Shown here: positions 52,162 to 62,235 of the stretch, one piece after another
Position numbering within the stretch: position 1 is the stretch's first letter
How the letters are laid out: every line of letters begins with the position of its first letter
Assembly (NCBI RefSeq): GCF_026020075.1
Contig: NZ_CP102772.1
Span: 4,740,501-4,804,500 of the forward strand
Reading direction: 5' to 3'
DNA from: Bosea sp. NBC_00550
GTDB taxonomy: Bacteria > Pseudomonadota > Alphaproteobacteria > Rhizobiales > Beijerinckiaceae
DNA length: 64,000 nt
The notes under the pieces: model-generated
The model's input: only the letters and a program-made list of their open reading frames with translations
What the model was told of the DNA's origin: nothing
Databases searched by the model: none
Translations under genes and position numbers: made by a program

Positions 52162-52666
52162 TCAGGATGCGGCGGACGTGTGGAGCAACGCGAAGGTGTG
52201 GCGGGCGATGACGAGTTCCTCGTCAGTTGGAATCACGAGGAGCGCCACTTTGCTTGCTGCGGTGGACATGCAAACGGCGCCGGATTCATTGGCGTCGGGT
52301 CTAGATCGGCACCCAGCCAGGCAAGACGTTCGGCGATGCGGCCGCGGATAGCCGGCGCGTTTTCACCGACTCCTGCGGTGAAGACGAAGGCGTCGAGTCC
52401 ACCAAGAGCGGCCGCCAACATCCCGGTCTGCAGCGCACAGCGATGGACGAAATGGTCGATTGCGAAGGCCGCGCCCGCCTCGTCACTCGCCAGCAGATCG
52501 CGCATGTCATTGGAGAGGCCGGAAAGACCCTTGAGCCCGGAATCGCGATACAGAAGATCAGAAACATCCTCCGCGCTCATGCCCTTGTGGGTGATCAGTT
52601 AGAGCACTACACCGGGATCGAGCTGACCGGGTCGGGTCCCCATCGGGAGGCCAGTGCGTCAATTGC
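52162..52666 (-). pseudogene. ackA: Acetate kinase C-terminal remnant with frameshifts and a stop
   Basis: Three pieces of an acetate/propionate kinase read in order on the minus strand. A short AIDALA piece (near 52666-52650) is followed by a frame change. Then come MGTRPGQLDPGVVL, an in-frame TAA at 52601-52599, and [20 protein letters not shown] through [16 protein letters not shown] second frameshift near 52298 leads to [17 protein letters not shown] and the stop at 52164-52162. About the first half of the gene (roughly 200 codons) is missing. It cannot give an active kinase. Confidence 0.88.
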
Positions 52667-52707: not shown

Positions 52708-54924
52708 TCAGGACGCGATACGATTGCCTGGATTCGACGGCCCAAGAGCTACCGGCTCACTTGGAGTCTGAAAGAACAGGGCAATGCGCGCGAGCCTCTC
52801 GCTAGTGGCGTCCGTTAGCGAGCCTGCCGCCTCCAGCACTTCGCGCAGAGCCGCGAAAGCCGCACGCCGCTCGTCTGGCTGCTTCGGCAGCAAAGCCGGG
52901 ATGGCTGCGAGTGCCGCATCCTCGTCGATCAGGAGCATGTAGTACTGTTCGCGTATCACTTTCTTGAATTCCCGAAGGCTTGTTTGCCGCGTCGCAGGAT
53001 GGGCCTGTCGGATACGACGGATCGCCTCGAAGCCGCGCTCGTCAACGCTGCCGCGTGCCAACCCGACATAGATTAGTGAACGGGCCAGCCCTTCGCGAAG
53101 CCCACCTGCCGTCATGAGCGCTCGCAATTCTGAAATCCGGGCTTCGAGGAGCCGGGTGTGCAGCAGGTTCGCCGCCGCTTGGCGCGGCCGGCGATGCGAC
53201 TTTACGTCGACACCGAGCGCACTCTGAAGCGCCGACGTTCCATAAATGGCATGGAAGCTCTGCTCCGACATCTTCTCAATCTCTTTACGCCAATTCTCTA
53301 AGCTTTCGACGATCTGCTCGGAAGCCTTCTCCTGAAGCGCCAAGAAAGGATTGTCGGCGGGAATTGCTTGCCTGTTTTCTCGAACGTTTTCCGCGGCGCC
53401 CTCGACCCACGAGAGCCAAGGGTTGCCGGCTCCAAACATTTCGTAGGAAAGGCGAAGCGGATGCAGGCTCCGCAACGCCGCGGCCATCGGCGTTGTGACG
53501 AGTGCCTGGACGATCGGCTGCGCCACGGTCCGGTAGAGCGCGAGGTTGATTTCGGAGACGCGCGCAGCGGCGGCAAACCGTCGCTCATCCTCCAGATCAT
53601 TTCCGCCCATGGCACGAATGTCATCCAGGGTTCGCGCTTCGCAGCGCATGACCCATGACCCCGTTACGAGATCGGGATTTGTGACCGCTTCACCCTTTGC
53701 CTCAAGAACTGCCTCGTAAAGGCCGGGCGGCAACACATCGATTAGGTCGATATTGGACGCGAACTCATCGTGCTCCTTGCGGGCCACTCCCGAAGAGACG
53801 AAGATACCAAGATGACCCACAGTCTCGTGCACCGCGTAGACGATTGTCTGGCCATAGGCGCGGATGTCGTCGACGCTATCGTATAGGTCGAGGATCCAGT
53901 CGAGCGCCTGCTGCGGGGGGGTGATGTTGTCGCCCTTGGAGCAGAAGACCACGATCGGTGAGGCAATGTTGCGTAAATCGATCGTCGTTCCATCGGAAGT
54001 CTGAATCGCACCGGCTGCAAGCTTGTTCCCCACAAAGAGCTCGTCGACGATAAACTGCATTTCTTCGGCATTGAGTGTTACATGCCCACCCCACCATTTT
54101 TCGAAACCGAGATAACGATCTGCTTCCGTGTCGATCTTTGAGTAGAGATTGTATTGCTTCGACCAAAGCGTGTTTGCGGGATTCTGGCTCTCGAAATTCT
54201 GAACTAACGAAGCCCCGTCGAAGATGCCGGCACCCAGATCGCCTGCAAGCGCGGTCAACCAACTGCCGCCGAGCAGCCCCCCCGCGTACCGCATCGGAAA
54301 CTGCCCCCTGACGCCAGCCCAGTAGGACAACGGCGTGCCGGCGACGATAATTGGGCCAAAAAGCTCCGGGCGAAGCGATGCCAGGATCATGACTGCCCAG
54401 CCGGCTTGGCAATTGCCGATTACGCAGGGTTTGCCCTCAGCATCCGGATGGCGCTCGATGACCTTCTCAAGGAAGATTGCCTCGGCCCGCGCGATGTCCT
54501 CGATGGTCTGGCCGTGCACAGGATCGGGCAAGAAGCCGATAAAATAACAGGGGTGCCCCGCCTTCAGGGCAACACCGATTTCGCTGTCGGCCTTGAAGCC
54601 GCCAATCCCGGGACCATGGCCCGCGCGCGGATCGACGACCACGAAGGGTCGCTTGCGTTGGTCAATGACTATCCCCGGCGGTGGAACGATGCCGGCCAGC
54701 ACGTAGTTGACCGGGCGCGCCAGCGTGCGCCCGTCACAAATTAATTCCGCTTCATAGTCGAGTACGTTTGGAGCGAGTTGTTTCGCGTGCTCCTCATACT
54801 GTCCTGCTCGCTTGCGCATTGTATCGAGGAAGAGAATCGCGCGCTGCCACGCGTCGGTCGAGTAAGAAAATGCGCTGTCTAGCGTGGACGGGTCTAATTT
54901 CTGAGATGTCGTCGGCTTGACCAT
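52708..54924 (-). CDS. DUF3141 protein (PHA-synthase-like alpha/beta hydrolase)
   Basis: A 738-aa protein of the DUF3141 family. It has an alpha/beta-hydrolase region with a Cys nucleophile box GNCQAGW (Cys about 172), resembling the G-X-C-X-G lipase box of poly-3-hydroxyalkanoate synthases, and a later HETVGHLGIFVSSG His region. The C-terminal third is helical. The ATG at 54924 has GGGAG 7 nt upstream. In relatives it leads an operon with a hydratase/phosphate acetyltransferase, ackA and fabI; here the middle gene is gone. Its substrate is unknown, but a short-chain acyl-CoA role is plausible. Confidence 0.88.
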   Translation of the reverse strand: MVKPTTSQKLDPSTLDSAFSYSTDAWQRAILFLDTMRKRAGQYEEHAKQLAPNVLDYEAELICDGRTLARPVNYVLAGIVPPPGIVIDQRKRPFVVVDPRAGHGPGIGGFKADSEIGVALKAGHPCYFIGFLPDPVHGQTIEDIARAEAIFLEKVIERHPDAEGKPCVIGNCQAGWAVMILASLRPELFGPIIVAGTPLSYWAGVRGQFPMRYAGGLLGGSWLTALAGDLGAGIFDGASLVQNFESQNPANTLWSKQYNLYSKIDTEADRYLGFEKWWGGHVTLNAEEMQFIVDELFVGNKLAAGAIQTSDGTTIDLRNIASPIVVFCSKGDNITPPQQALDWILDLYDSVDDIRAYGQTIVYAVHETVGHLGIFVSSGVARKEHDEFASNIDLIDVLPPGLYEAVLEAKGEAVTNPDLVTGSWVMRCEARTLDDIRAMGGNDLEDERRFAAAARVSEINLALYRTVAQPIVQALVTTPMAAALRSLHPLRLSYEMFGAGNPWLSWVEGAAENVRENRQAIPADNPFLALQEKASEQIVESLENWRKEIEKMSEQSFHAIYGTSALQSALGVDVKSHRRPRQAAANLLHTRLLEARISELRALMTAGGLREGLARSLIYVGLARGSVDERGFEAIRRIRQAHPATRQTSLREFKKVIREQYYMLLIDEDAALAAIPALLPKQPDERRAAFAALREVLEAAGSLTDATSERLARIALFFQTPSEPVALGPSNPGNRIAS

Positions 54925-55122
54925 TACACACTCCCGCCGGAATTCAGTTCCTAGTCGGCGCGGTTTTAGCCGGTCAGTGCGTAATTTACGAGTCCGATCT
55001 CGAAACGCCAGTTCTGGCCGACAACTGCATCTACTGAGCGCCCGAGGCACGCGCAAATAGGATTCCAGCGGAGAATCGGATGTGATTCATGGGTTTCGAC
55101 TGATCTGGAGGTCGGAAGCGAT

Positions 55123-55344
55123 GTCTACTCGGATGGACGAAGACGACTGGGCGTCAAAGAGAAGGACAGGCCCGCCTTCTTCGCCACCACGCTCATAAGG
55201 CCCGCCCGTATCGAGCAGGGCATCGGCACCCTCAAACGCTTCAAGCGCGTTGGCCTCCGATGCGAAAAGACAGCCCGGAATTTTCGGTCCATCGTCAGCT
55301 TCGCCGCAGGCCTATGCTTGATCAAATTCGTCCAGACGGCCTAA
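55123..55344 (+). pseudogene. IS5-family transposase C-terminal remnant
   Basis: 73 codons to TAA (55342-55344) match the end of IS5-type transposases: KEKDRPAFFATTLIRPARIE near the start, then GTLKRFKRVGLRCEKTARNF, ending LIKFVQTA. The rest of the transposase is missing upstream, where DUF3141 promoter DNA begins. The element is not functional. Confidence 0.82.
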
Positions 55345-55406: not shown

Positions 55407-56654
55407 TCAGAGCTTCAACGCCTGCCTATACTCCTCGCCAAACGTGGACAGTGAACTGGCGAGCACCGTCGCCGCGCCATCCACCAGGCCGCAACGGCCG
55501 GAACCAGGCAGCAGCCGCGTAAGATTCTCCAGGGCCGCAAGATCACTCGGCCGCCCGGCGCCGGCCTCGATACGCTCGAGGATGCGCGAAACCTGATTTG
55601 TGCCGATCTTGCAGGAGGGGCATTGACCGCAGGAATTGGCCGCGAAGAAAGCGACGTATTCTGCCGTCTTGCGCAGGATACTAGTGCCTTCGCCAACTAC
55701 GATCATCGCACCCGTGCCGAGCCGCGAGCCACGTGCCCGCAGGCTGTCGAAATCCAGCGCCACGTCGAGATCACTGGCCGTCAGAAGCGTGTTGGAAGGA
55801 CCGCCGGTGAAGACGGCCTTGAACCCCTTATCCGCGAGCATTCCGCCGCCATGGCCGAACACCAGGTCGCGTAGGGAGGTGCCCATGGGCAGTTCGTGCA
55901 GGCCGGGGCGCATTACGTCACCGGACAGCGAATAGAGCTTGGTGCCCACCGCATCGCCGAGGCCGAGCCCCCGATACCAAGCAGCGCCCCGGCCCAGGAT
56001 GTGCGTCGCATGGGCGAAGGTCTCGACATTGTTCAGCAGCGTCGGCGCGCCGTACACGCCCTTCTCGGCGGGGAAGGGCGGCTTGAGCGACGGGAAGGGA
56101 AAGCCGCCCACCACGCTGGCCACCGCTGCCGTCTCCTCGCCGCCGACATAAAGGCCGGAGCTGGGACTGACATGGATCTCCACAGGCATCCCGATCGCCC
56201 CGCCGACGCGCGCGAGGAGAGGATGCTGGCGCCACGCCGCGGACGCGGCGTGCAGCATTTCCACCAAGCCGGTCTCGCGCGGATTGACGTAGAGGGCAAT
56301 CCTGTTCGCCTTGACTGCGATCGCGCCGATGAGCGCGCCCTGGATCACCTGGTGGGGCGTGCGGGAGAGCAGGAATCGGTCCTTGAAAGTGCCTGGCTCA
56401 TCCTCATTGCCATTGCAGATGATCCATTTCCCGCCTCCCTCCGGGCAGAGCGGCTGGGCAGCCACGGCGGCCCATTTGCGATGCGTCGGAAAGCCTGCGC
56501 CGCCCAGACCGCGCAGCCCGGCAGCTTCCAGGGTGGGAATGATGCTGGCCGGGTCCGACAGGGCACGCTCCAACCCTTCGCCGCCGCCCGCCGCGAGCCA
56601 CCCGGCGAGATCCGGACCGACTTGGATGGCCTCGGCGGTGAGCACGGCGGTCAT
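55407..56654 (-). CDS. NuoF-like NADH-binding flavoprotein subunit
   Basis: A 415-aa protein of the complex I 51-kDa/HndC family. The FMN/NADH site is RGLGGAGFPTHRKW (48-61), GNEDEPGTFKDR (82-93) and YVGGEETA (159-166). A [4Fe-4S] site is at Cys332, Cys335, Cys338 and Cys378. No NuoE-like partner and no membrane complex I genes are present. Its start overlaps the flavoprotein stop by 4 bp (ATGA). It probably passes electrons between NADH and the neighbouring Fe-S protein (inference). Confidence 0.88.
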   Translation of the reverse strand: MTAVLTAEAIQVGPDLAGWLAAGGGEGLERALSDPASIIPTLEAAGLRGLGGAGFPTHRKWAAVAAQPLCPEGGGKWIICNGNEDEPGTFKDRFLLSRTPHQVIQGALIGAIAVKANRIALYVNPRETGLVEMLHAASAAWRQHPLLARVGGAIGMPVEIHVSPSSGLYVGGEETAAVASVVGGFPFPSLKPPFPAEKGVYGAPTLLNNVETFAHATHILGRGAAWYRGLGLGDAVGTKLYSLSGDVMRPGLHELPMGTSLRDLVFGHGGGMLADKGFKAVFTGGPSNTLLTASDLDVALDFDSLRARGSRLGTGAMIVVGEGTSILRKTAEYVAFFAANSCGQCPSCKIGTNQVSRILERIEAGAGRPSDLAALENLTRLLPGSGRCGLVDGAATVLASSLSTFGEEYRQALKL

Positions 56655-58273
56655 GTGGCGATCGACCTATCGGTGGAGGCGTCGAAATTGCCATAGGGCG
56701 GAAAGATCATCGGCGACTTGCGGCTAAGTGGCAGGCCCTGCATCTCAAGGGCGCGGCGCCAATTGGCCAGGTGCGCCAGACCGACGTTACGCGGCCGCTC
56801 CCCCCGTGCGTCGGCCGCCGCGCTGGCACCGGCGTGGCGGCCGAACACCACCAGTTCCAGCAGCGCGTTGCCCATCATGCGGTTGCGCCCGTGCAGTCCG
56901 CCGGTCACTTCGCCGGCACACAGAAGGCCGGGGACGGCCGTGCGGCCCTTCGGGTCGATCAACACACCGCCATTCTGGTAGTGCAGCGTTGGACGGATCA
57001 GGAAGGGTTCTTCGGCCGGGTCGAAGCCGCCGCGATGCGCGAGGTGGAGCAGCGTGACGAGGCTTTTCTCCAGGATGCCGGGCTTCGCCTGTTCCAGGGA
57101 TGGCGTGTCAAGAAAGACGCCGGTCTTGCCATCGCGGCCGATGCCCCGGCCCTCGGCGATCTCGCGCAGGACCGCTGAGGCCACGATGTCGCGTGGCTGC
57201 AATTCATCGACAAAACGCTCACCCCGCCCATTCACCAGATAGGCGCCGGACGAGCGGGCCGCCTCGCTGACCAGCGCGCCTTCCAGGTGCGGCGGCCAGG
57301 CGATGCCGGTAGGGTGGTACTGGAAGCTGTCCACGTCGCGCAGCGCAGTGCCGAGGCGATAGGCCAGCGCCAGCCCGTCCGCCGTGGCGCCGTAGTGATT
57401 CGAGGTCGGAAACCCCGCGAGATGCAGCCGCCCCGCGCCGCCAGTGGCCAACACCACCGCCCCGGCGCGCGCCAGCACCGCGCGGCCGTGAGCGAAGTCG
57501 TGCAGGACCGCCCCGGCACAGCGGCCGCGATCGTCGCTTAGCAATTCCAGCGCCGGATGGCGGTCGAGGAGGGTGATCCCCGGCTGCAGCAGGGTCGCTT
57601 CCCGCAGCGCCCGCATCAGTTCCAGCCCGGTGAAGTCTCGATAGGACAGCAGTCTGGCCGCGGTGGCGCCGCCCGGCTTCTTGCGCAGCAGCGTACCGCC
57701 CATGCGTTGGCTGTTCTCGGTGAGGTCGAAGTTCATCCCCTCCTGGATCAGCCAGCGGATGGCGGAAGGTCCGTCTGCGACCAGGGCCGCCACCAATGCC
57801 TTGTCGGCGGTGAAATGGCCCGCGCGCAGCGTGTCCTCGAAATGGCGTTGCAGGCTATCCTCGGCGCCCACGGCGGCCTGGATGCCGCCTTCGGCCATGA
57901 CGGTGTTGCTGTCTCCGATGCGCAGCTTGGTGGCGAGCAGCACGCGCGCCCCGGCACGGGCGGCGGTTAATGCCGCCACGCAGCCCGCTCCACCACCGCC
58001 GATGACCAACACATCAGCGTCCAGGGTCGGAGCGCCGGCGAGGTCCACATCCTCCAGCAGCGAATCCGCCTGCAGCAGGTCAGCGAGGATGGCCGGGCAT
58101 TCCTGGCCGGCGCTGACGCCGACCCGGAGCGTCACCATGGCGCCCGGCTGGCGGTCAGGGTGGTAGCCGGCCAGCAGGTCCTGCACCGGCAGGTCCAATG
58201 CCTTGGCCGGGGCCGGGGCGGCGGCTCGCCAAGCCTCCACGGCTTGCGCATGCGGAATGCAGGCGGCGCTCAA
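56651..58273 (-). CDS. Fumarate reductase/succinate dehydrogenase-like flavoprotein
   Basis: A 540-aa FAD protein. The FAD motif IGGGGAG is at 91-97. SNT at 122-124 stands where membrane SdhA/FrdA has the FAD-linking His, so FAD is likely non-covalent, as in aspartate oxidase and soluble fumarate reductases. Active-site elements are kept: HPTG (320-323), RD (361-362), R427 with HY (431-432) and LHGRNR (460-465). An ~80-residue N-terminal part precedes the FAD fold and is not recognised. It overlaps both neighbours by 4 bp. Confidence 0.88.
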   Translation of the reverse strand: MSAACIPHAQAVEAWRAAAPAPAKALDLPVQDLLAGYHPDRQPGAMVTLRVGVSAGQECPAILADLLQADSLLEDVDLAGAPTLDADVLVIGGGGAGCVAALTAARAGARVLLATKLRIGDSNTVMAEGGIQAAVGAEDSLQRHFEDTLRAGHFTADKALVAALVADGPSAIRWLIQEGMNFDLTENSQRMGGTLLRKKPGGATAARLLSYRDFTGLELMRALREATLLQPGITLLDRHPALELLSDDRGRCAGAVLHDFAHGRAVLARAGAVVLATGGAGRLHLAGFPTSNHYGATADGLALAYRLGTALRDVDSFQYHPTGIAWPPHLEGALVSEAARSSGAYLVNGRGERFVDELQPRDIVASAVLREIAEGRGIGRDGKTGVFLDTPSLEQAKPGILEKSLVTLLHLAHRGGFDPAEEPFLIRPTLHYQNGGVLIDPKGRTAVPGLLCAGEVTGGLHGRNRMMGNALLELVVFGRHAGASAAADARGERPRNVGLAHLANWRRALEMQGLPLSRKSPMIFPPYGNFDASTDRSIAT

Positions 58274-58950
58274 GCAACGGACTCCGTAGGGGGCGGATTG
58301 GCGCCGGGCGCGTCGAAGTCAATCGGCTGCCGGCCTTCCCCGATCTCGTGCAAGCGCATGATCAGGTCCGACGGGCGCAGTGTGAGGGAGGCGCGCATCC
58401 GCCGCACGAACTGGCCCAGATGCGCAGGGTCGATATGCTCGGGGCAGGCGGCAACGCAGAGATTGCAGAGCACACAGTGATCGAACAGCCCCGCCGCCGC
58501 GTCGGTCTGGCCCAGAACGGCCAGATCGACCATGCGCTGCACCTCGATCCCTTTGGGGCAGGCGTGGTCGCAGCCGCCGCAGTGGCGGCAATGCTTGGCT
58601 TCGGGGAAGACCGCGCCGATCTGCTCGATGGCTGTCCAGCTGTCGGCGAGGAGTTGCAGGTCGTAGCCATGCGCGCGGCTAGCCGGGAAATGGTCGATGA
58701 AGGCGACCTGCATGCCCTCCTCGGCCAGCATCTCGCAGGCGAGCGCCGTGCTGGCCAGCCGCTCGCCCGTGCGGCGCACCAGAACCCGGCAGGCACCACA
58801 GACCCCCTGGCCCATGCAGCCCACATTCTCGGTGAGCGGCAGGCCGGCCCCGATCCAGGCCTGGAGCAGGGAGACGCCCCTGGTCGCCCGGATGGCATGG
58901 CCGTCGAAGGTGAAGCCTACGCCATCGGCGGCTGCGGCATCGTCGGCCAT
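58270..58950 (-). CDS. Fe-S subunit with [2Fe-2S] and two [4Fe-4S] motifs (SdhB/FrdB-like)
   Basis: A 226-aa electron-transfer protein. The N-terminal plant-ferredoxin-like domain has Cys45, Cys51, Cys54 and Cys72. The C-terminal part has two full CxxCxxCxxxCP motifs: Cys121/124/127/131 and Cys149/152/155/159. The ATG at 58950 has GGAGGAG 8 nt upstream, favoured over ATG 58974. It links the flavoprotein (4-bp overlap) to the NuoF-like subunit. No cytochrome b or anchor subunit is encoded, so the complex should be soluble. Confidence 0.88.
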   Translation of the reverse strand: MADDAAAADGVGFTFDGHAIRATRGVSLLQAWIGAGLPLTENVGCMGQGVCGACRVLVRRTGERLASTALACEMLAEEGMQVAFIDHFPASRAHGYDLQLLADSWTAIEQIGAVFPEAKHCRHCGGCDHACPKGIEVQRMVDLAVLGQTDAAAGLFDHCVLCNLCVAACPEHIDPAHLGQFVRRMRASLTLRPSDLIMRLHEIGEGRQPIDFDAPGANPPPTESVA

Positions 58951-58979
58951 GCGGGTTTCTCCTCCATCCGTCATCGGGT

Positions 58980-60485
58980 TCACCAGAGGCCCAATATCCT
59001 CCACCAGGTGGTGCCGAGCACCGCGTAGATGATAAGCTCCCCAACGCACATGATGAAGCCGACGCGCCACCAGGTGCCCAACGGCACATAACCGCTTCCG
59101 AAGATGATGGGCGAGGTGCCGGTGGCGTAGTGCGTCAGTGTCATCATGATGCTTGAGCCGGCCACCATCATGAGCAAGAACGGTATCACATAGTCGGGCG
59201 GCACCACGCTGACGCCCACGGTCAGGAAGGCGAGCATCATGGCGCTGATGTGCGCCGTCGTGCTGGCGAAGAAGTAGTGCGAGAAGACAAAGAGCAGCAC
59301 GAGCAGCGTCGCGGCCAGCTCCCATCCCATGCCGGCGGCCACGATGCCGTTCTTCAGCAGGTTGGAGAACCAGGGGATGACACCGGTCTCGTTCAGCTGC
59401 TCGGCCATCATCACCAGGGCGCCGAACCAGATCAGCGTATCCCAGGCGCTCTTTTCCGAAAGGACGTCGTCCCAATCGATCGTGCCGGTGATGATGAGGG
59501 TGAACAGGCCCAGGAAGGCAACGGCTGTGGGGTCAAGCGTGAAGGCCGGGCCGAAGATCATCGCCGGCACGTTGGCCCAGAGCACGAGCAGCATCGCGAA
59601 GGTGCCGATCATCACCCATTCCTTGCCCGAGAGCGGGCCCATGCGCTTCAGTGCGGTCTGCGCATATCCGACCGCATCCGGCGTCGCCTTCACCTCGGGT
59701 GGGGAGAGGATGGAGATGGCGATGGGCATGAGCAGCAGGCAGACCAGGCCCGGCACCAGCATGTAGAGCGCCCAGGCCGTCCAGGTGAGATGGAAGGTCT
59801 GGTTCGTGACCCGCGCGACATAGTCGACCACCAGCGGGTTCGGCGCCGTGGCGGTGACGAACATGCCCGAGGTGATCGTATTGGCATGCATGTTTACGAG
59901 CGACAGGTAGGTGCCCATCTTCCGCTCGGTGCCCTTGGCAGGATCGGAATCAAACGCGGTCGCGATCGATCGCATGATCGGATGCACGATGCCACCACCG
60001 CGGGCCGTGTTGCTGGGCGTGAAGGGCGCCAGCACCAGTTCGCAGATCGCCAACCCGTAGCCGATCCCGATGGTCCGCTTGCCCAGCAGGCTGATGAAGA
60101 TCAGGCCCATGCGGCTGCCCAGACCGGTCTTCTTCAGGCCGCGCGAGATGAGGATCGCGACCACGATCAGCCAGATGAGGGGACTGGACAGGCTACCCAG
60201 CGCGTCCGCTATGGCGCCCCTCGAGGAGGTCGCGGTGACCTGCGAAAGGGCGACGATGGTCATTGCCATCATGGCCATGACGCCGATCGGCATGACCTTG
60301 AGGATGATCGCGAGGATGGTGGTCAGGAAGATGCCCAGAAGCGCCCAGGCCTTCGGCGTCAGCCCTTCGGGGGCGGGCAGCAGCAGCATGACGACCAGGA
60401 AGATCGTCGTGATGATCGCGGGCTGCAGTCGGAACGGTACCGATGCCTTGAAAAAATCGAACATCGCCTTCAGGCGCCCGAGCAT
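58980..60485 (-). CDS. DASS/SLC13-family divalent anion (dicarboxylate) transporter
   Basis: A 501-aa membrane protein of the divalent anion:Na+ symporter family (CitT/TtdT-like). It has about 12 helices and the paired substrate loops typical of the family: PSNTARGGGIVHPI (about 158-171), a second SNT-like region TATAPNPLV, and TGTSPIIFGSGY near the end. The ATG at 60485 has AGGGGGA 8 nt upstream; a TTG at 60491 is in frame. It is the first gene of the four-gene operon, 29 bp before the Fe-S subunit. Expected cargo: a C4-C6 di- or tricarboxylate. Confidence 0.9.
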   Translation of the reverse strand: MLGRLKAMFDFFKASVPFRLQPAIITTIFLVVMLLLPAPEGLTPKAWALLGIFLTTILAIILKVMPIGVMAMMAMTIVALSQVTATSSRGAIADALGSLSSPLIWLIVVAILISRGLKKTGLGSRMGLIFISLLGKRTIGIGYGLAICELVLAPFTPSNTARGGGIVHPIMRSIATAFDSDPAKGTERKMGTYLSLVNMHANTITSGMFVTATAPNPLVVDYVARVTNQTFHLTWTAWALYMLVPGLVCLLLMPIAISILSPPEVKATPDAVGYAQTALKRMGPLSGKEWVMIGTFAMLLVLWANVPAMIFGPAFTLDPTAVAFLGLFTLIITGTIDWDDVLSEKSAWDTLIWFGALVMMAEQLNETGVIPWFSNLLKNGIVAAGMGWELAATLLVLLFVFSHYFFASTTAHISAMMLAFLTVGVSVVPPDYVIPFLLMMVAGSSIMMTLTHYATGTSPIIFGSGYVPLGTWWRVGFIMCVGELIIYAVLGTTWWRILGLW

Positions 60486-61875: not shown

Positions 61876-62235
61876 TCAGCTGATCAAGGCTTTGTGGATT
61901 GCGGCGATGACCGCGTCGCGATCGTCCAACACTTCGCTATTCGTGAAGCGAATGACCGTGAAACCATGCTGCTCGATCTCCTCGGTCCGCGCGGTGTCGT
62001 CGTCGCGCTCCCAGCCATGCTGTTGGCCGTCAGGTTCGACCACCAGCTTGCGGTCGATGCAGAGGAAGTCGACGGTGTAGCCGAGCAGCGGCACTTGCCG
62101 CCGGAACTTCAAACCGTCGAGGCGGCGATCGCGGATGAGGGACCACAGCATGTCCTCGGCTTCCGTCGCTCGGGCGCGGAGCTTTCGGGCGAGAGGCGGC
62201 GTTCTGTGGTGACTGGAAGGATGCTGTACCGGCAT
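61876..62235 (-). CDS. DUF559 (Vsr-like) endonuclease-domain protein
   Basis: A 119-aa DUF559 protein of the restriction-endonuclease-like/Vsr superfamily. Visible motifs are ARKLRARATEAEDMLW, LKFRRQVPLLGYTVDF (catalytic Asp) and KLVVEPDGQQHG in place of the common ELDG.QH, then RTEEIEQHGFTVIRF. The family is very common in Hyphomicrobiales but its role is not settled. It stands alone between inverted copies of a repeat, with no operon partner. Several Met codons near the N-terminus are not available, so the ATG at 62235 is the simple choice. Confidence 0.85.
   Translation of the reverse strand: MPVQHPSSHHRTPPLARKLRARATEAEDMLWSLIRDRRLDGLKFRRQVPLLGYTVDFLCIDRKLVVEPDGQQHGWERDDDTARTEEIEQHGFTVIRFTNSEVLDDRDAVIAAIHKALIS

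Follow-up and report, generated by a model that had tools for sequence, protein, structure and literature searches.

The window analysed here is a stretch of 64,000 nucleotides of Bosea sp. NBC_00550, corresponding to positions 4740501-4804500 of the 6.27-Mb genome. It contains a minus-strand operon whose four genes, all in one direction, are ordered DASS, Fe-S, FrdA-like, and NuoF-like, and whose products are candidates for a soluble NADH-linked fumarate reductase and a transporter. The DASS transporter gene (58980..60485, minus strand) encodes 501 aa, of the exchanger (DASS-E) type as judged by its residues. It is followed on the same strand by the genes for an Fe-S electron-transfer subunit (58270..58950, 226 aa), a flavoprotein of the FrdA/SdhA type that binds flavin adenine dinucleotide (FAD) and is the predicted catalytic subunit (56651..58273, 540 aa), and a NuoF-type subunit for NADH, flavin mononucleotide (FMN), and a [4Fe-4S] cluster (55407..56654, 415 aa). 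The last three genes are called the trio below.

The first-pass annotation, made from the letters alone, described this four-gene set with a 29-bp spacing between the DASS and Fe-S genes, and both are present. The Pfam families are Complex1_51K and NADH_4Fe-4S, FAD_binding_2, Fer2_4 with several Fer4 models, and Na_sulph_symp; Pfam and NCBIfam agree with the families assigned at that time. Two ATGA overlaps were also described. The overlap between the FrdA-like and NuoF-like genes is ATGA, but that between the Fe-S and FrdA-like genes is TTGA, and the start codon of the flavoprotein is TTG. The first internal ATG is at residue 46, and a start upstream of it is supported because A11, L34, H38, P39, and D40 are invariant in an alignment of 59 sequences (window included). 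Among the matches listed, which for the flavoprotein are 25 of 55 models, the flavoprotein, the NuoF-like protein, and the Fe-S protein each score below the cut-offs of all NCBIfam models.

The enzyme subunits have no clear membrane segment. No 19-residue hydropathy window above 1.6 is found in the flavoprotein or the NuoF-like protein, and the Fe-S protein has a single window just above this value (1.63), on the second [4Fe-4S] motif. A membrane anchor had been reported as absent, and none was seen by eye among the open reading frames listed at 55-61.8 kb, where no anchor-family search was run.

Predicted catalytic and electron-transfer subunits

All eight positions checked against the active site of E. 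coli FrdA are kept in the flavoprotein (H320, T322, E337, R340, R361, H431, Y432, and R465), as expected from the first-pass annotation. These residues are identical in all nine aligned proteins, which are six family members and E. coli K-12 FrdA, SdhA, and NadB. The roles of the compared FrdA, SdhA, and NadB residues are presumed here. In the 59-sequence alignment, six of the eight (His320, Arg340, Arg361, His431, Tyr432, and Arg465) do not vary; Thr322 and Glu337 are conserved in at least 90%. The His that links FAD covalently in E. coli FrdA is indeed replaced, by Asn123, and Asn occupies this position in all six family members aligned. Because of this substitution, the FAD of the flavoprotein is expected to be non-covalent.

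The first 82 residues of the flavoprotein (58028..58273, minus strand) are an N-terminal extension with an invariant C59 and an HPD motif. It is present in all six family members compared and absent from E. coli FrdA, SdhA, and NadB. A function in subunit docking is a guess.

The Foldseek search with the predicted flavoprotein model gave E. coli FrdA as the top match. The best NCBIfam model among the matches listed is TfrA, at 322.2 bits against a cut-off of 718; the score for sdhA_frdA_Gneg is 283.7 bits against 567.3. The trio genes appear in databases as L-aspartate oxidase, FAD-binding protein, or ferredoxin. Several of these names point to an NAD-linked L-aspartate oxidase or dehydrogenase similar to NadB, acting in NAD or aspartate metabolism. 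E. coli NadB also lacks the FAD-linking His, and the nadB profile gives 285 bits, but this is below its cut-off of 452.75 bits. Moreover, Glu121 of E. coli NadB is replaced by Pro in the flavoprotein and by Pro, Ala, or Gly in five aligned relatives, and no nadA match was found in the own genome by a search that was positive in 12 of 14 control genomes. A NadB-like function is therefore highly unlikely.

The Fe-S protein carries [2Fe-2S] ligands C45, C51, C54, and C72 and two [4Fe-4S] motifs (C121/124/127/131 and C159/162/165/169), the set of motifs initially recognized. It has exactly 12 cysteines, all of them invariant in 62 aligned sequences (window included). In the NuoF-like protein, the cluster cysteines C342/345/348/388 are kept in the alignment with E. 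coli NuoF. The GGAGF, DEPGT, GEET, and KPPFP motifs are also kept, and most of them are shared with E. coli NuoF. The score against the nuoF equivalog TIGR01959 is 345.6 bits, below the cut-off of 558.65. The own genome encodes a complex I NuoF elsewhere. A third NuoF-type gene is located at genome positions 4825207-4826394, ~20 kb past the window (442.6 bits, below the cut-off).

In the PDB, the NuoF-like chain is matched best by three B subunits of bifurcating enzymes, a result that would suit an electron bifurcation in which NADH is oxidised with fumarate and ferredoxin together. Bifurcation is also proposed, in the excerpt of PMC7282089, for a related fumarate reductase that is fed by Flx/Hdr. 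However, the NuoF-like chain stops at residue 415, whereas those B subunits (584-630 aa) continue, and there is no NuoE/HydC-type gene in the operon. Bifurcation by the trio is very unlikely.

Distribution of the trio and its neighbours

The 39 non-window loci compared consist of 30 loci from the genome-contig scan, seven from a plasmid collection, and two from same-family genomes. The eighth plasmid-collection match, from Ilyobacter, has no NuoF and is outside the 39. The scan loci include Fe-S in 29, FrdA in 30, and NuoF in 28. The order Fe-S, FrdA-like, NuoF-like is conserved among the 39, with NuoF in 37 and Fe-S in 38. In both loci without NuoF (L023 and L033), the contig breaks off within the flavoprotein gene or shortly behind it; L023 also lacks the upstream Fe-S gene and has a radical-SAM gene in that place. 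The carriers are alpha-, beta-, and gammaproteobacteria, and metagenome-assembled genomes labelled Myxococcales, Acidimicrobiia, and Propionibacterium. An order of three genes kept this consistently is far more than chance would produce.

Of the named relatives in the scan, Roseomonas mucosa is nearest, with a flavoprotein 90% identical. At an E value of 1e-100 or better, the flavoprotein is found in one of 61 relatives, three of 199 family genomes, and 31 of 398 phylum genomes, the own genome being included in each count. Such a patchy distribution suggests horizontal spread of the trio flavoprotein.

Another 29 loci from the phylum (44-50% identity) have Fe-S in 26 cases and NuoF in none. 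Where Fe-S is missing (three loci), the upstream sequence is no longer than 417 bases; downstream, the flanks of the 29 loci span 594-1506 bases. NuoF is also absent from the wide flanks that are available for six of these loci. The NuoF-less loci and Ilyobacter form a separate group (28 rows, support 100/100). Since NuoF is present in 37 of 39 trio loci and in none of the sister group, the link to NuoF is characteristic of one subfamily and not accidental.

The DASS protein belongs to Pfam PF00939 and scores 359 bits against NCBIfam TIGR00785, above the cut-off of 198.6. Its closest solved structures are chloroplast DiT1 and DiT2 and LaINDY. It resembles all three in family and, judged by alignment, LaINDY also in the charged residues in place of sodium. 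According to the excerpt of PMC7553777, DASS exchangers typically swap succinate against other dicarboxylates, and the cation-site residues Arg159 with Glu146, His392, and His401 are conserved in exchangers and absent in cotransporters. The equivalents of LaINDY E146, R159, H392, and H401 are all kept in the window protein, which is thus predicted to be of the exchanger type. In the DASS proteins of trio loci, R159, H392, and H401 are kept in 19 of 19, and position 146 is E in eight and D in 11. A DASS gene (at least 34% identity) is near the trio in 19 of 39 loci, DctA in four, and either in 21. Cupriavidus metallidurans CH34 has both DASS and the trio. In the two same-family genomes (L091 and L092), DctA follows the trio, with an FMN-dependent dehydrogenase gene between them in L091.

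Genes for fumarase or aspartase neighbour the flavoprotein gene in four lineages; NuoF is present in two of these. A class I fumarase gene is divergent from the trio in all five Neisseria loci with enough upstream sequence; it was called by Pfam on one locus and by tblastn at 92% or higher on the others. Two further Neisseriaceae loci, L020 and L022, have too little upstream sequence and are outside this count. In Alysiella, the same class I fumarase gene lies 4.5 kb upstream of the trio. In Cupriavidus sp. P-10, the class II fumarase gene fumC is directly after NuoF (778 bits, cut-off 664.75). Among NuoF-less loci, L072 (6314-10023) has fumarase genes directly before Fe-S/FrdA, and Ilyobacter polytropus has an aspartate ammonia-lyase gene ~7 kb upstream of them. 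Neither NuoF nor an Hdr/Flx match is found nearby in L072, and five other loci are similar. Because the eight active-site positions are kept and fumarase or aspartase neighbours occur in four lineages, fumarate is the likeliest substrate of the trio.

Against this assignment, fumarase or aspartase was not found in the searched stretch of 32 of the 39 trio loci, nor at the window; the own genome has one class II and one class I fumarase elsewhere. The DASS gene accompanies fewer than half of the related trios: co-occurrence, proposed as a check for the four families, is seen for the trio, which is not limited to this strain, and only in part for its "own" transporter. The same machine could reduce another unsaturated acid imported by DASS, of the mesaconate, aconitate, or itaconate type, or urocanate. 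FrdA-type enzymes with varied acceptors are known, and urocanate reductase and FrdA match the flavoprotein model about equally well. A TctC-type receptor gene adjoins the trio in Roseomonas mucosa (by Pfam), and relatives at 31-37% identity are near four further loci. This alternative is nevertheless unlikely: the complete FrdA active-site set is retained, DASS and DctA are dicarboxylate carriers, and the neighbours in four lineages point to fumarate.

Proposed reaction and role

The trio is likely a soluble NADH:fumarate oxidoreductase of the cytoplasm that works towards succinate, a quinone-free NADH sink accompanied by an exchanger. The soluble three-subunit reductase of the first-pass annotation agrees with the trio order, the active site, the NuoF motifs, some fumarase or aspartase neighbours, and the predicted exchanger. 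The reading is based on gene families and their conserved order, on residues and neighbours, and on fold predictions for two subunits taken singly; from these, complex formation, the electron path with its cluster order, the substrate, the direction, and the physiological role are inferred.

In the proposed mechanism, the NuoF-type subunit would take a hydride from NADH onto its FMN. Single electrons would then pass through the [4Fe-4S] cluster of this subunit and on through the Fe-S subunit with its three clusters to the FAD of the FrdA-type subunit, which would reduce fumarate to succinate. The Fe-S/FrdA pair is a conserved module, to which the NuoF subunit would supply electrons in place of the complex II membrane anchor. 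The DASS exchanger probably imports fumarate, malate, or a related acid and releases succinate. The net outcome would be an NADH sink without quinone and without proton pumping. The energy of the NADH-to-fumarate step is probably not conserved because the enzyme subunits show no clear membrane segment.

Electron transfer from NADH to fumarate is downhill by ~67 kJ/mol (computed for standard conditions from +30 mV and an assumed -320 mV), and thus the enzyme should run towards succinate. The first-pass annotation left room for the reverse, a dehydrogenase of succinate or a related acid that feeds NADH. Roseomonas is largely aerobic and NuoF relatives can work reversibly, both in favour of such a dehydrogenase. 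However, the same gap of ~67 kJ/mol would have to be climbed, which is thermodynamically implausible, and the own genome already has an ordinary SdhA elsewhere (954.7 bits, cut-off 727.35; 805.6 bits for sdhA_frdA_Gneg, above its cut-off). The reverse direction is extremely unlikely.

For the NADH:fumarate oxidoreductase, the likely role is NADH disposal under oxygen shortage, with succinate going out in exchange for fumarate or malate. Together with the ordinary succinate dehydrogenase, the trio could bypass complex I. A broader and more tentative possibility is a horizontally spread plug-in module, a portable head of FrdA and Fe-S subunits with interchangeable NADH modules, NuoF here and Hdr/Flx in Ilyobacter-like anaerobes. 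With the exchanger, aerobes such as Roseomonas and Neisseria might use outside fumarate without quinones; with succinate dehydrogenase, the module might be a non-pumping NADH-to-quinone shuttle past complex I.

If the proposed function is true, the proteins now named L-aspartate oxidase, FAD-binding protein, or ferredoxin constitute a compact NADH:fumarate reductase. For the carriers in Roseomonas, Neisseria, and Cupriavidus, metabolic models would change with respect to NADH disposal when oxygen is short. The trio would be an example of recombining parts of complex II and complex I, and a soluble three-gene enzyme for succinate production from fumarate and NADH.

Known systems and flanking sequences

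Complex II (succinate:quinone and quinol:fumarate reductases) shares with the trio the catalytic fold, the active site, and an Fe-S partner that combines a [2Fe-2S] domain with a domain for two clusters. The trio differs in that no anchor gene was seen, the FAD-linking His is missing, there are two [4Fe-4S] motifs of four Cys each, and the flavoprotein has the N-terminal extension. NuoF, HoxF, and HydB share the FMN, NADH, and [4Fe-4S] motifs, but the trio subunit has no NuoE-type partner in the operon and is tied to an FrdA-type gene.

By gene linkage and motifs, an NADH/FMN/[4Fe-4S] subunit is tied to an FrdA-type subunit, as in a soluble NADH-dependent fumarate reductase. The enzyme of this kind from Hydrogenobacter thermophilus is reportedly composed of five subunits encoded by scattered genes, in contrast to three enzyme genes in an operon here. 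The title of the paper on it (Miura et al. 2008) describes it as soluble and NADH-dependent, as is predicted for the trio. The Aquifex FrdA-E proteins are tabled in PMC10052474 as frdA, frdB1, aq_116, nox, and dmsB2, and none in that table is named nuoF. In the excerpt of PMC12773636, methyl viologen served in the assay of a Blautia luti fumarate reductase, and an NADH-dependent enzyme occurs only as part of a theoretical pathway.

Another group is fed by Hdr/Flx. The "succinate operon" of Pseudoclostridium thermosuccinogenes contains an Flx/Hdr-linked fumarate reductase, together with a fumarase and what may be a succinate transporter (PMC7282089, in excerpt). Compared by gene order only, it resembles the present loci in combining a two-gene fumarate reductase, fumarase, and a putative transporter. 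In tubeworm symbionts, tfrAB are interspersed with flxABCD-hdrABC (PMC6315080, in excerpt). The excerpts on this type propose an Hdr/Flx complex with bifurcation as the electron source, in contrast to the NuoF subunit of the trio. In Ilyobacter, a homologue with 47% identity to the window flavoprotein is encoded beside Hdr- and Flx-like genes. On the I. polytropus plasmid (L036, 613-9515), HdrB/C/A-, MvhD-, and Flx-like genes and then Fe-S/FrdA form a single run that has aspartase on its upstream border. This run is apparently an Hdr/Flx-fed fumarate reductase. No match to the five Ilyobacter Hdr/Flx/MvhD proteins was found in 20 kb around the window cluster.

No description of a NuoF-fed trio was found in the literature searched, among the matches listed. 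The initial statement that no enzyme with this exact set is described thus holds for the NuoF-fed trio, which is a new combination, but soluble NADH-linked fumarate reductases are already known, from Hydrogenobacter and, as proposed in the excerpts cited above, in the Flx/Hdr-fed form.

Upstream of the operon, a DUF559/restriction-endonuclease-like protein is encoded at 61876-62235 (minus strand). Directly past the operon, an open stretch of 61 codons (55159-55341, plus strand) has no Pfam match. It resembles what we take to be the tail of an IS5-type transposase, which would agree with the patchy distribution. Farther downstream, an acetate kinase remnant (52233-52580, minus strand) adjoins the gene for a DUF3141 protein (52708-55056). 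The remnant covers only profile positions 257-357 of 392; its N-terminal part is missing there, and the upstream frame carries stops.
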